A stretch of 45,493 bases of DNA from an uncultured Pelagibacteraceae bacterium (GTDB lineage Bacteria; Pseudomonadota; Alphaproteobacteria; Pelagibacterales; Pelagibacteraceae): positions 1 through 45,493 of the forward strand of contig CACDHZ010000005.1 in the NCBI GenBank assembly GCA_902552705.1, in the 5' to 3' direction. The position numbers and the translations under genes are program-made. Positions 32,398 to 39,027 of the stretch are shown in pieces. Numbering within the stretch: position 1 is the first letter of the stretch; the number at the start of each line of letters is the position of its first letter. A model generated the notes under the pieces. The model did no database searches and was not told where the DNA came from. It saw only the letters and a program-made list of their open reading frames with translations.

Positions 32398-33540
32398 CTT
32401 TTATAAATTTGTCCTAAATAAAACTCTAAAAACTTTTTGCTCTTCACTAGTTTTTTCAAAAAAATATCTCTAAAAAATGAAGTGAAAGGACTAGATAAAT
32501 GAAATGCAAATAGATTAAATTTTGATCTGTTGTTGACCATTTTGGTTTTACTGACTCTATTCTTAAAAAAGCTATCTTCTGTATTGTTTTCTATACTTTT
32601 GAATAATTCATAAGCATCCTCTATTGACTGGGATGCACCTTGAGCAAATGATGGTGGAAAAGCAAAAAAAGCATCACCTATAAAATGAATATTGTTATTT
32701 TTTATTTTAAAAAAATTATCACTGACAAATATTGGGAATATTTTTAGTTCCTTAATCTCATCTAAAAATTTCATCATTTCTAAAGGAACATTATCTAAAA
32801 TTTTTTTGATAAAATTATTATCATTAAATAATGAATAGTTTTTTTGTTCATTAGTTGCAAGTTTATATTTCATAATCGCTATAAAGTTTAAATTTCCATT
32901 TTGAGTTACTGGGTAAATTACATAATGAAAATTTGGACCTAAAAATAATGAAATATTTTTTTTATCAATTATATTAGAGGAACTAGGAATCATTCCTCTA
33001 ATGGCCAGCGTATCATTATATCTAGGTTGATCTTGATTTTTTGAAATAAGTTTTTTACTTTTTGAAAAAACTCCATCTGATATGATTAAATAATCACATT
33101 CAAAAGCTTCATTATTTTTAAAGGTAATTTTGATCTTTTGATTTGCATGATCTATCTTCGAAATACTATGATTAGTCTTAATTAAGTTTTCTAAATCTTT
33201 TTTTAGAAAATTGACTAAATCAGATCTTTTCAAAGTAGTGTACTTACAGTCTTTTGAATTGAAATCAGAAATATTTAAATCACATATCTTGTTCAAGTTT
33301 TTTATTGAGTAAAAATTTATTTTATCTGGATTAAACTTTTTATTTTTTTCAAATTTATTAAATTCAATCTTGTTTAAGAGCTTGACGCTATTCACTGATA
33401 ATTGAATTCCATAACCCTCCTCCAAATTAATTGAGTGATTTTTTTCATAAACTGTAATTTGATAATTTGGACTTTTTTTGAATAAATTAGCAATAAACAA
33501 TCCTGAAATACCTGCTCCAATAATTGCAATTTTTTTTCAT
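32394..33540 (-). CDS. FAD-dependent monooxygenase; apparent 1-nt frameshift near the N-terminus (conceptual start 33540, open frame from 33500)
   Basis: GDAFFAFPPSFAQGASQSIEDA and DYLIISDGVFSKSKK; dinucleotide-binding motif IAIIGAGISGL lies upstream of the called start in the main frame, but ATG 33540 is out of frame by one. Confidence 0.8.
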
Positions 33541-34520
33541 TAATTTTTCTCTAAATATTGAACAACTTTTTTTGTAAATGATGGCAACATGTAACTATTC
33601 AACTTTTTTCCATCCACCCAATAAGATGATGGAAATTTTTGATTATCTTTTGAATATTGAATTTTAATATTCATGTTCATATTAGACATTTTAAAATTTA
33701 AATTTTCATTAAAATTTTTAGGATTAGATAATTCAAACATTGGGAATATTGATAAATTTTTTAAAAAATTAAATTTTTTGTTTTTAATTAATAAATATCT
33801 TTGTTTTTTTTTGTAAACTTTTAATATAAAATATTTATTTTTATTTTTCTTAATACTCTTTGTTAGACTAAAATCTTTCTTTTTATAAGATTTGCAGTTT
33901 TTTCTAATTGGGCACTGATTACAAATTGGATTACTTGGTTTACATATTAAAGCTCCTAATTCCATTAATGCTTGAGCATAATCACTAGACCTTAAAGTAT
34001 TTCCGAATATATTTTTTTTTTGTGCGAGATTATCTTTTTGAATTTCTTTATCTTTTTTTAAATAAAGATATCTTTTTAAAACTCTTTCGATATTTCCATC
34101 TAATGGGATATATGGTTTATTAAATGCAATAGCTAAAATTGCACTTGCAGTATAATTCCCTATACCAGGAAGTGTAATTAAATCTTCAAAATTATTGGGT
34201 AATTTTCCTTTAAAATCTTTAATAATAATTTTTGCAGTTTTTTTTAAATTTCTTGCTCTAGAATAATATCCAAGACCTTCCCAAAGCTTAATTAATTTTG
34301 TGTTATCGATTTTTGCAAGAGTTTTAAGATTTGGAATATAGTTAATAAACCTTTTAAAATAAGGAACAACAGTTACAACCTGTGTTTGCTGTAACATAAA
34401 TTCGCTTACTAATGTGTAATATTGTTTTTTTTGTAATGAAACATTTTTTCGCCATGGTAATGATCTTTTATTTAAATCATACCAATTAAGAATTTTTTTT
34501 GTTACTAATTGTTCTTTCAT
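33540..34520 (-). CDS. mutY: A/G-specific adenine glycosylase
   Basis: WYDLNKRSLPWR, SEFMLQQTQVVTVVPYF, LPGIGNYTASAILAIAFN, Fe-S loop C-x6-C-x2-C-x5-C. Internal ATG at 34520 preferred. Confidence 0.96.
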   Translation of the reverse strand: MKEQLVTKKILNWYDLNKRSLPWRKNVSLQKKQYYTLVSEFMLQQTQVVTVVPYFKRFINYIPNLKTLAKIDNTKLIKLWEGLGYYSRARNLKKTAKIIIKDFKGKLPNNFEDLITLPGIGNYTASAILAIAFNKPYIPLDGNIERVLKRYLYLKKDKEIQKDNLAQKKNIFGNTLRSSDYAQALMELGALICKPSNPICNQCPIRKNCKSYKKKDFSLTKSIKKNKNKYFILKVYKKKQRYLLIKNKKFNFLKNLSIFPMFELSNPKNFNENLNFKMSNMNMNIKIQYSKDNQKFPSSYWVDGKKLNSYMLPSFTKKVVQYLEKN

Positions 34521-35009
34521 ATGCAATATAAAAAATATACTAAGCAGAGAAGTGGTAGCATTCAAGGCTTAAGATCCTTTAAAGACACTTTGCCAACAAA
34601 CATCAAAAAAATAATCAAAAAAAAAGGACATATATTTTCAGAAACACTTAATAATTGGAAATTGATAGTTGGAGATGAGCTTTTTCAGATTTGTTACCCA
34701 AAAACTTTTAAAAATTCTAATAAGTTTGGAGTAAGTACTCTTCATATAATGGTAAAAAGAGGACATGAAGTAGACTTAGAATACTCAAAAAAAGAAATAA
34801 TAGATAAAATGAATAGTTTTTTTGGTTATTCAGTTGTAGAAAAATTAAAATTTATCAGTTTTAATGATGCTCAAAATAAATTTAAAAAAGAAATTAAAAA
34901 AAATAATAGTGTGACAAATAATAGATATACAGATAAAGTTAAAAGTATTAAAAACGAAAAAATTAAACAATCACTTATAAAATTAACTAAATTATTTAAA
35001 CAAAGATGA
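34521..35009 (+). CDS. DUF721 (DciA-like) domain protein
   Basis: LNNWKLIVGDELFQICYPKTFKN...LHIMVKRGHEVDLEYSKKEIIDKMNSFFGYSVVEKLKFI, between mutY and a DsbA-like gene. ATG at 34521 preferred. Confidence 0.75.
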   Translation: MQYKKYTKQRSGSIQGLRSFKDTLPTNIKKIIKKKGHIFSETLNNWKLIVGDELFQICYPKTFKNSNKFGVSTLHIMVKRGHEVDLEYSKKEIIDKMNSFFGYSVVEKLKFISFNDAQNKFKKEIKKNNSVTNNRYTDKVKSIKNEKIKQSLIKLTKLFKQR

Positions 35010-35596
35010 AAAAGATTACTTTATTACTTTTTGTCTTAATGATTGGGTTTTGCAATAACTTATTTGCTGACCAATATCAAAAAATCAAAAGAATTTCAGA
35101 AGGTAAAGAAAATGCTAAAATAATTATTATAGCGTACGAATCTCTCACTTGTGTACATTGTGCAGAATTCCATAAAAATGTTTATCCATCTCTTAAAAGA
35201 GACTTTATTGAGAAAGGTTTGGTTAGAATTGAATTTAGACATTTCCCTTTAGACATACTTGCATTTAATGCTTCAAAAATAGGACAATGCAATAATGATG
35301 GAAAATCAGATTTAATGCATATTTTATTTTCTGGACAAGAAAAATGGGCTAAAGGCAAAACACCAGAAGAAGCAAAAGGACATTTAAAGAAATTTTTATC
35401 TGACGAGGGTATAAAAATAGATTTTGAAAAATGCTTAAATAATAAAAATATTGAAGATTATGTTTTAAATGATCGAATCGAGGGTGTTAAAAAATTTCAA
35501 GTTAATGCTACTCCTACGATAGTTATTAATGATAAAAAGTTTGATAAAGCTCTAAATTATAAAAATTTAAAAAAATACCTAGAAAAACTGATATAA
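35006..35596 (+). CDS. DsbA family thiol:disulfide oxidoreductase, secreted
   Basis: Signal peptide MKKITLLLFVLMIGFCNNLFA; YESLTCVHCAEFHKNVYP (CxxC); VNATPTIVINDKKFD. Confidence 0.92.
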   Translation: MKKITLLLFVLMIGFCNNLFADQYQKIKRISEGKENAKIIIIAYESLTCVHCAEFHKNVYPSLKRDFIEKGLVRIEFRHFPLDILAFNASKIGQCNNDGKSDLMHILFSGQEKWAKGKTPEEAKGHLKKFLSDEGIKIDFEKCLNNKNIEDYVLNDRIEGVKKFQVNATPTIVINDKKFDKALNYKNLKKYLEKLI

Positions 35597-35604
35597 TCTA
35601 GATT

Positions 35605-38001
35605 ATGGAGTTTAAAAAAATCCAATTAAATGGATTTAAATCATTTGCTGAAAAAACAGATTTTTTAATCGAAGATGGATTAACAGGTATTGTTGGTCCT
35701 AACGGTTGTGGAAAATCAAATATTGTGGAGTCTTTAAGGTGGGTTATGGGGGAAACCTCAGCAAAAAGTATGCGTGGATCAGGAATGGAAGATGTTATTT
35801 TTTCTGGGACTTCCAACAAAGCTTCAAAAAATATTGCTGAAGTTTCAGTTAATGTAATTAATAAAAATCATGATGGTCCTGTTAAATATAAAAATTTAGA
35901 TCAAATTGAAATTAGAAGAAAGATTGAAAAAGATAAAGGTTCTAAATTTTTTATAAACAACAAAGAAGTTAGAGCTAGAGATGCACAAATGTTTTTTGCT
36001 GACTTATCAACAGGTGCTCATTCACCTTCAATGATTAGCCAAGGACGTATAGGAGCACTTGTGACAGCAAAACCCGCAGATAGAAGAGCTATTTTGGAGG
36101 AAGCAGCAAATATTTCAGGTCTACATGTTAGACGGCATGAAGCTGAGCTAAGACTGAATGCTGCTGAAAACAATTTAAAAAGAGCTGATGAATTAAGAAA
36201 ACAACAAGAAAAACAGTTAGCAAATCTTCAAAAACAAGCTGAAGAAGCTACAAAATACAAAATGATCTCTGAAGAGATTAAAAAAATTGAGGCTGGTTTA
36301 TATTATTTAAAATTATTAGATATTGATAATGAAATTAGAATTGAGAATGAAATTAACACTGAAGCTGAGGGAGAGGTAAGTGGTTTTAATAACAAAATAT
36401 CAGATCTTGAAAAAGTAATAAAATCAGAAACAGATAAAGTCTCACCCTTGAGAGAAAAAAATATTGAAAATTTATCAAAAATTCAGAGACTTAATTTGGA
36501 GCTTCAGAGTCTTGATGAAGAAAATACTAGAACTCAAGATGAAATTGAAAATATAAAAAGATCTCTTAAGACTTTTGATGAAGATATTAATAGAGAAAAA
36601 GGAATAATAATTGATGCAAATTCTAATGAAAAAAGACTTAAAGAAGAAAAAAATGACCTAATTGAAATTGACTCAAAATATTATGAAACTGAGAAAAATT
36701 CTAATAAAGATTTAAATTTTTCTAAAGAAAAATTAAAATTTGAAATTAATAAAATTAAAGATTTAATTAACTCAAATAAAAATCAAGAAGCAATAAAAGT
36801 TTTAGATAACTGTGAATTAGTTATAGATGAATATGCTGAGAGCTATAGTAAAAATCAAAATATCAAAAAAGAATCTGTAAAAAGAAACGAAAGAATAAAT
36901 ACTATTGATAAAGAAATAGAAAGTTGGAAAAATTTATTATCAAATTCTGAAAAAATGGTAACTGAACTTACTGAGAGAAAAAGTAGGCTAAATTTGCAAT
37001 TAGAAAAATTAGATACCCAACCAAAATTACAGGCTGAAAAAAAAGGTCAAATTTCTGAAAATTTAAGAATCTCTGAGCAAGAAAAAATTAATAATGAAGC
37101 TATTATAAATGATACTGATAAAAAAATTGAAACTTTACGAACTGAGTTAAATGAAGTTCAAGAACAATCTATACAAATCAGAGAAAGAAAAGCTAGCTCT
37201 AGTGCAACTGTTGAAGGTTTAAAAAAACGTAAAGATGATTTGTTAGATAGAATTCTGTCTGAACTTAATATGAAAGAAAATAATATTCTTGAAAATTCTA
37301 ATTTATATGGTGTTGAAAATTTGCCAGACGCAGTCACTCAAGAAGAAGTGTTAGATAAAAAAAAACGAGAAAGAGAAAAGCTTGGATCTGTTAATTTACG
37401 AGCTGATGAGGAAACAAATACGTATAAAATTGAAATAAAAAAAATGGAACAGGATAGAGAAGATCTTGTGTCAGCTATAATGAAACTAAAAGAAAGTATT
37501 AATGAATTAAACGAAAAAGGAAGGGAAAGGCTTTTAGAGGCTTTTGAAAAAGTAAATAGAAAATTTAATGAAGTCTATACTAAATTATTTAATGGAGGTA
37601 GTGCAAAACTAGAGTTAGTCGACTCAGATGACCCACTAGAAGCAGGACTTGAAATGTTAGTAAGTCCTCCTGGCAAAAGACTTCAATCGATAACTCTTTT
37701 ATCTGGAGGAGAACAGGCTTTAACAGCTCTATCACTTATATTTGCAGTATTTTTAACTAATCCATCTCCAATATGTGTTCTGGATGAGGTCGATGCTCCA
37801 CTTGATGATGCAAACGTCACTAGGTTTTGTAGTCTTTTGGAAGAATTAATAAAAATAACTAATACAAAATTTGTTATTGTAACTCACCACGCATTAACAA
37901 TGTCAAAAATGAATAGACTTTATGGTGTAACAATGCCAGAAAAAGGAATAAGTCAATTAGTAGCTGTAGATTTACAAAAAGCTGAAAGTATGGTCGCTTA
38001 A
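35605..38001 (+). CDS. smc: Chromosome segregation protein SMC (short; no recognisable hinge)
   Basis: Walker A GPNGCGKSNIVESLRWVMGE, signature LLSGGEQALTALSLIFAVF, Walker B CVLDEVDAPLDDANV; 798 aa with coiled coil only between the heads. Confidence 0.93.
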   Translation: MEFKKIQLNGFKSFAEKTDFLIEDGLTGIVGPNGCGKSNIVESLRWVMGETSAKSMRGSGMEDVIFSGTSNKASKNIAEVSVNVINKNHDGPVKYKNLDQIEIRRKIEKDKGSKFFINNKEVRARDAQMFFADLSTGAHSPSMISQGRIGALVTAKPADRRAILEEAANISGLHVRRHEAELRLNAAENNLKRADELRKQQEKQLANLQKQAEEATKYKMISEEIKKIEAGLYYLKLLDIDNEIRIENEINTEAEGEVSGFNNKISDLEKVIKSETDKVSPLREKNIENLSKIQRLNLELQSLDEENTRTQDEIENIKRSLKTFDEDINREKGIIIDANSNEKRLKEEKNDLIEIDSKYYETEKNSNKDLNFSKEKLKFEINKIKDLINSNKNQEAIKVLDNCELVIDEYAESYSKNQNIKKESVKRNERINTIDKEIESWKNLLSNSEKMVTELTERKSRLNLQLEKLDTQPKLQAEKKGQISENLRISEQEKINNEAIINDTDKKIETLRTELNEVQEQSIQIRERKASSSATVEGLKKRKDDLLDRILSELNMKENNILENSNLYGVENLPDAVTQEEVLDKKKREREKLGSVNLRADEETNTYKIEIKKMEQDREDLVSAIMKLKESINELNEKGRERLLEAFEKVNRKFNEVYTKLFNGGSAKLELVDSDDPLEAGLEMLVSPPGKRLQSITLLSGGEQALTALSLIFAVFLTNPSPICVLDEVDAPLDDANVTRFCSLLEELIKITNTKFVIVTHHALTMSKMNRLYGVTMPEKGISQLVAVDLQKAESMVA

Positions 38002-38006
38002 TCTTA

Positions 38007-38282
38007 ATGCCAGATAATCAATTTAAAACTCGCTTAGAGATTGCAAAATCTAAACTCTTGAGAAAAAATCAAAATAAAGACAAAAATAGACCCTCTTCAA
38101 TTGGAATTGCATTTAAAATGAGCACAGAATTGGTATCAGCTGTTGTAGTTGGGACAATTATTGGGTTTATTTTAGATAAGACCTTTGGTACTAAACCATG
38201 GTTAATATTAATATTTTTTTTTGTAGGGGTAATTGCTGGTATATCTAATGTAATTAAATCTGCAAAAAACATGCAAAAATAG
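38007..38282 (+). CDS. atpI: ATP synthase protein I (AtpI/AtpZ-like)
   Basis: Small 2-TM protein (ELVSAVVVGTIIGFILDKTFGTKPWLILIFFFVGVIAG) directly upstream of atpB. Confidence 0.88.
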   Translation: MPDNQFKTRLEIAKSKLLRKNQNKDKNRPSSIGIAFKMSTELVSAVVVGTIIGFILDKTFGTKPWLILIFFFVGVIAGISNVIKSAKNMQK

Positions 38283-38292
38283 ATAAAAATTT

Positions 38293-39027
38293 ATGGCAGC
38301 AAATCCAATGACTCAATTCGAGGTTTATAGAATTGGTCCAGAAATTAAAATAGGTGCTTTTGACATTTCTTTTACAAATGCAAGTTTATTTATGGTTATT
38401 AGTTCGGTTGCAATTTTAATTATATTTAATCTAGGCTCTAAAAAAAATTTAATGTTACCAAATAAGATTCAGCTCTTAGCCGAATTAAGTTATACTTTTG
38501 TCTCAAAAATGATTAGTGATACCGCAGGTTCCAAAGCAAAACCTTACTTTGCTTTCATATTTTCATTATTTATGTTTGTTCTTTTTTGCAATATGTTTGG
38601 AATGATACCATACACTTTTACAGTCACCAGCCATATTATAGTAACATTTGTTTTAGCAGCATTTATTTTTATTGGAGTTACAATTGTTGGGTTTATCAAG
38701 CATGGATTTGGTTATTTAAAATTATTTGTACCAAGTGGAGTACCTATTGTGCTACTTCCACTAATAGTAGTTATTGAAATTATCTCATATCTAAGTAGAC
38801 CAGTAAGTTTATCTGTTAGACTTTTTGCTAATATGATGGCAGGTCATACTATGATGAAAGTTTTCGGAGGCTTTGTAATAAGCCTTGGAATAGTCGGTGG
38901 ATGGCTTCCACTGAGTTTTTCGGTTGCATTAACTGGTTTGGAAATCTTGGTTGCTTTTCTTCAAGCATATGTTTTTGCAATTTTAACCTGCATCTATTTA
39001 AATGATGCATTAAATTTACACCATTAA
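38293..39027 (+). CDS. atpB: F0F1 ATP synthase subunit a
   Basis: SRPVSLSVRLFANMMAGHTMMKV, LEILVAFLQAYVFAILTCIYLNDAL. Confidence 0.98.
   Translation: MAANPMTQFEVYRIGPEIKIGAFDISFTNASLFMVISSVAILIIFNLGSKKNLMLPNKIQLLAELSYTFVSKMISDTAGSKAKPYFAFIFSLFMFVLFCNMFGMIPYTFTVTSHIIVTFVLAAFIFIGVTIVGFIKHGFGYLKLFVPSGVPIVLLPLIVVIEIISYLSRPVSLSVRLFANMMAGHTMMKVFGGFVISLGIVGGWLPLSFSVALTGLEILVAFLQAYVFAILTCIYLNDALNLHH

Follow-up and report, generated by a model that had tools for sequence, protein, structure and literature searches.

Order-wide loss of the SMC hinge in SAR11 bacteria, with ATPase heads, coiled-coil arms and ScpA/ScpB partner genes retained

We propose that the SMC protein encoded in the window, the whole 45,493-nucleotide stretch of DNA analysed here from an uncultured Pelagibacteraceae bacterium, belongs to a hinge-less SMC-ScpAB condensin that lost its hinge before the SAR11 order (Pelagibacterales) diversified, carries a hairpin arm of about 229 residues, and pairs its subunits by means that include a loose contact at the arm tips, a reading to which we give a probability of about 0.6. 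SMC serves SAR11 in folding and separating the chromosomes, and across the whole order it has lost the hinge, the domain by which two SMC molecules are normally joined, while the heads, the arms and the ScpA/ScpB partner genes are kept. The hinge counts among the defining features of SMC motors, in which it closes the ring and acts as a DNA gate, and its order-wide natural deletion offers a natural experiment on whether loading and loop extrusion require it. SAR11 are among the most abundant groups of ocean bacteria, and with heads, arms and ScpAB kept, this long-standing mechanistic question becomes testable with a small recombinant complex. The gene, its parts and its neighbours lie in the window as follows.

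33540..34565, minus strand: mutY-like gene, syntenic marker (PF00730; same neighbour in relatives)
34509..35009, plus strand: dciA-like gene, syntenic marker (PF05258)
35006..35596, plus strand: DsbA-like thioredoxin gene, syntenic marker (PF13462)
35605..38001, plus strand: smc gene encoding the 798-aa hinge-less SMC (ATG start)
35605..36120, plus strand: N-terminal ATPase head half, residues 1-172 (motif alignment, AlphaFold)
35695..35721, plus strand: Walker A GPNGCGKSN, residues 31-39, invariant in the order (ortholog alignment)
36121..36771, plus strand: N-terminal coiled-coil arm, residues 173-389 (AlphaFold helices 173-247 and 255-389)
36742..36846, plus strand: arm tip, residues 380-414, where other Alphaproteobacteria have the hinge and distal arms (AlphaFold, alignment)
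36772..36780, plus strand: predicted hairpin turn Ser-Asn-Lys, residues 390-392, with no globular domain (AlphaFold)
36781..37524, plus strand: C-terminal coiled-coil arm, residues 393-640 (AlphaFold helices 393-470, 472-553, 576-591 and 600-662)
37525..37998, plus strand: C-terminal ATPase head half, residues 641-798 (motif alignment, AlphaFold)
37696..37731, plus strand: ABC signature LLSGGEQALTAL, residues 698-709 (ortholog alignment)
37774..37809, plus strand: Walker B / D-loop CVLDEVDAPLDD, residues 724-735 (ortholog alignment)
38007..38282, plus strand: atpI-like gene, syntenic marker (PF09527)
38293..39027, plus strand: atpB, ATP synthase A chain, syntenic marker (PF00119)

The open reading frame at 35605-38001 is a true orthologue of bacterial smc and the sole SMC found in the window's own genome, a MAG that is 71.6% complete. 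Pfam and alignment place in it a bipartite ABC ATPase head (SMC_N at 1.9e-46) whose Walker A, signature and Walker B/D-loop motifs vary little or not at all across 32 orthologues, which confirms at residues 31, 698 and 724 the canonical head halves that the preliminary description had read in this 798-aa protein. The NCBIfam equivalog TIGR02168 (SMC_prok_B) scores 651.2 bits against a cut-off of 567.35, Rad50 models reach at most 43 bits, and no RecN model matches at E<=0.001; the nearest solved structures are bacterial Smc heads by sequence and SMC-family heads by fold. The gene order mutY-dciA-dsbA-like-smc-atpI-atpB recurs in other SAR11 genera and, broadly, among alphaproteobacterial relatives that have the hinge, with nothing unusual seen among the genes flanking smc in the window or in these relatives. 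As the central hinge is absent, the protein is an smc orthologue by descent and a non-canonical SMC by architecture.

No Pfam hinge is found in the window protein, even at E<=10, and PF06470 matches none of 117 genomes of the order. We reject PF06470 alone as proof of absence, however, as it is too insensitive in Alphaproteobacteria, where 91 of 289 class genomes match, and feebly; a hinge profile was therefore built from 28 full-length alphaproteobacterial SMCs, with a 10-sequence version for six-frame genome searches. The alphaproteobacterial hinge is a diverged one with an invariant G--WRWDG motif, and most true hinges of this class are missed by PF06470. The custom profile returns 163-207 bits on the 28 SMCs used to build it, none of 60 SMC proteins of the order scores above 1.5 bits (E 0.87), and the profile matches neither the window protein nor, in six frames, any of 147 genomes of the order. 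In the wider class the 10-sequence version is positive, again in six frames, in 90 of 142 genomes, which take in every complete SMC gene outside the SAR11 order and one other small order, and a clear SMC head without a hinge match is limited among the 142 to two SAR11 genomes, one genome of that other small order (G219) and three genes cut by contig ends. An independent scan of named genomes gives about 80-206 bits for full-length alphaproteobacterial SMCs and at most 1.4 for complete SAR11 SMCs. A separately encoded hinge is likewise rejected, as no hinge homologue occurs in the 147 genomes of the order. The loss of the hinge suggested by the preliminary description is thus borne out by the lack of a match in the window protein and the order in the HMM search it proposed, of a predicted globular tip and of full-length relatives within the order; the stretch from SGFNNK to KKGQ (residues 259-479), which it took to be free of glycine, does hold one inner glycine, G333, but no hinge domain. 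Outside the order, a 1028-aa SMC of a Treponema MAG (L210) does not match the profile, which is an alphaproteobacterial one.

The AlphaFold2 monomer model of the window SMC (32 orthologues, mean pLDDT 77, pTM 0.47) runs a helix from residue 255 to 389 into the turn at 390-392 and out again along a helix from 393 to 470, at a pLDDT of about 80-85 near the turn, and shows no globular tip. The SAR11 SMC arm is accordingly predicted to end in a plain helical hairpin, and the position of the turn identifies residues 380-414, earlier named as standing in place of the hinge, as the arm tip. Among SAR11 SMCs conservation is lowest at the tip (identity 0.56 vs 0.73 and 0.67 in the arms), whereas in full-length relatives the hinge stands at 0.53 and the arms at 0.38 and 0.35, so that the conservation pattern is inverted in the SAR11 SMC relative to hinge-bearing SMCs. 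Tip length and sequence vary between SAR11 lineages, and tip hydrophobicity is somewhat raised in most of them (0.34-0.43 vs about 0.27), weakly so in the 798-aa form. The window SMC has no CxxC zinc hook, and C403 is its single arm cysteine; a disulphide or zinc at this position is rejected, the cysteine not being conserved. Two tip-length forms, of 798 and 857 aa, alternate within the Pelagibacter-type genus (window 36742-36846; L034-L042, L153-L165), with three or more switches between them on a tree from which the tip was left out. AlphaFold predicts the 59 additional residues of the longer form, at lower confidence, as a small helical insert (401-418, 422-444). Family f2 (L172, L173, L049, L053) carries a conserved aromatic tip motif, GYDDPxxWTxxFxxKFY, not seen in other SAR11, which is perhaps a small folded tip module.

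The hinge is not all that is missing. Between fixed head motifs, full-length alphaproteobacterial SMCs hold an N-terminal arm of 326 residues, the hinge and a C-terminal arm of 344, whereas the head-to-head span of the window SMC is 459, divided by the AlphaFold turn at 390-392 into about 214 and 242; the protein therefore lacks about 112 aa on the N-terminal side, the hinge and about 102 aa on the C-terminal side, which leaves a mean arm of about 229 aa vs about 335. The preliminary description was right that the hinge is lost and overlooked the accompanying loss of about 100 aa from each arm. Comparison across the order places the removal of the hinge and about 100-110 aa per arm, approximately one coiled-coil superhelical turn, before the order diversified. 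An identical span of 459 recurs in 36 of 98 hinge-less proteins, and arm indels are absent within lineages (gap fraction 0.00). The mode of prokaryotic SMC arm length is 238 aa, and functional lengths are spaced about 91 aa apart (Buermann et al., PMC5344682); the closeness of the ~229-aa arm to this mode is suggestive, the two length measures not being identical. With dN/dS at about 0.04 in the heads, about 0.16-0.33 in the tip and about 0.08 overall, smc is under purifying selection.

Of 197 genomes of the order, 180 carry an smc orthologue of the same architecture, at 798-891 aa, single-contig genomes and single-cell assemblies included; the open frames of intact full-length alphaproteobacterial SMCs run to about 1100-1260 codons, a few being longer. 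Out of 49 good genomes of the order, 46 have ScpA and 46 have ScpB, whose genes adjoin, which answers in favour of retention the check on partners that had been proposed for this protein. The MAG from which the window comes has a fragment of scpA only (G000:C38:3018-3224, open frame 114 aa) and no match to scpB, as expected because the genome is incomplete.

In our model the SAR11 SMC, as product of the bacterium's single smc gene, is the motor of SMC-ScpAB condensin. Two subunits would continue to act as a pair through ATP-dependent engagement of the heads, with ScpA linking one head at its neck to the other at its cap. The arms may zip together, their hairpin tips meeting in a non-specific coiled-coil contact in place of the hinge, and the complex would still load on DNA and organise the chromosome. 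Dimerisation by means other than the hinge is plausible, and the paired-arm view draws on the fixed arm length and the slightly raised tip hydrophobicity of most lineages; an arm length fixed without indels near a functional mode is easiest understood if the arms pair. Low conservation of the tip, with its dN/dS of about 0.16-0.33, argues against a specific dimer interface and keeps alive an open-topped clamp, in which there would be no apical dimerisation, the heads would meet via ATP, ScpA-ScpB would act as tether and the arms would be levers or spacers. A tip of low conservation, differing from lineage to lineage in both length and sequence, predicted as a plain hairpin, and devoid of CxxC, conserved cysteine or other obvious interface speaks for such a clamp, but the arm length, fixed without indels and near a known functional mode, and the slight hydrophobic enrichment of the tip speak against it, and we hold it to be a tentative possibility that deserves to be taken seriously. 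Its extension to the whole SAR11 order, as a condensin without apical dimerisation whose subunits meet only at heads and kleisin, is slightly more doubtful; if true, DNA would be organised with no closed tripartite SMC ring.

The functional gap left by the hinge could also be filled by a separate partner protein that binds the hairpin tips and supplies dimerisation, for which the lineage-specific tip modules could be docking sites, but the tip is poorly conserved, nothing unusual lies beside smc, and no hinge homologue was found in 147 genomes, in a search covering hinge-like partners only; we think such a partner improbable. More improbable again is that condensin function was lost and the protein now serves another role, Rad50- or RecN-like, as its head and hairpin coil might suggest by their general resemblance to those proteins. 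The 651 bits of TIGR02168 vs at most 43 for Rad50 models, the missing zinc hook, the retention of ScpA and ScpB and the strong purifying selection on the heads all oppose this, and the Rad50-like machine once suggested for the window protein is not supported. That the window derives from a 71.6% complete MAG might raise the suspicion of an assembly error or an internal deletion in this one copy, which is already refuted, as 180 genomes, some of them single-contig genomes or single-cell assemblies, share this architecture.

The paired, hinge-less condensin that we favour may be set beside known systems. Canonical Smc of SMC-ScpAB (Caulobacter/Bacillus type) shares orthologous heads, arms, gene order and ScpA/ScpB with the window SMC, but is about 1150 aa long with a hinge, whereas the latter has 798 aa, no hinge and about 100 aa less per arm. 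Rad50/SbcC and archaeal ASRP/ClsN resemble the SAR11 SMC in combining a head with a long antiparallel coiled coil and no SMC hinge, but they dimerise by a CxxC zinc hook, which the SAR11 SMC lacks, and match it weakly in sequence. RecN, which is SMC-like with a short coil and lacks a hinge, is of a different family from the window SMC, with no RecN model matching. B. subtilis Smc works with the Rad50 zinc hook swapped in, making the dimerisation fold replaceable, and the arms of its mini-Smc work only at certain lengths (PMC5344682); these engineered variants always keep a dimerisation domain, unlike the SAR11 SMC. A hinge-less SMC that also lacks the zinc hook is described in uncultured marine Actinobacteria, as a metagenomic cluster, in the accessible part of Sussfeld et al. 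2025 (PMC12153180). Compared on that basis and at the level of architecture, both proteins have a head and an antiparallel coil without hinge or hook, while partner genes and an arm analysis are given here for a whole named order with ScpAB retained and, in the accessible part of that report, for none of the actinobacterial cluster. As marine Actinobacteria are of a different phylum, the two hinge losses are likely separate. No account of the SAR11 loss was found in the accessible part of PMC12153180 or in targeted literature searches of partial coverage, and the SAR11 SMC is an order-wide, better documented case of the actinobacterial kind.

Within the Alphaproteobacteria, head-only trees hold all SAR11 SMCs together (100/100). 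A second small order, of MarineAlpha6 type (G219; L145-L149, L177, L179), is also hinge-less, with a tip sequence different from that of SAR11; every complete copy but one is 817 aa long. These SMCs fall apart from SAR11, weakly, and the AU test does not reject a common clade (p-AU 0.168); one hinge loss shared by both orders is therefore not adopted, and we speak of one or two losses. The GC content is about 24% in L122 of this order, and L177 is labelled Pelagibacteraceae SP38, yet its SMC groups with the MarineAlpha6-type order. Other lineages (L181, L182, L230 and L121 (G226)) keep the hinge on arms of just 187-198 aa, so that shortening of the arms can be separated from loss of the hinge. 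The 869-codon frame of G226 is neither hinge-less, as the hinge profile matches it, nor a frameshift, as its relatives L181 and L182 are a real short-armed, hinged form. In L127 (G313) the hinge is likewise kept, on an arm of 239 aa vs 326-344 in full-length relatives.
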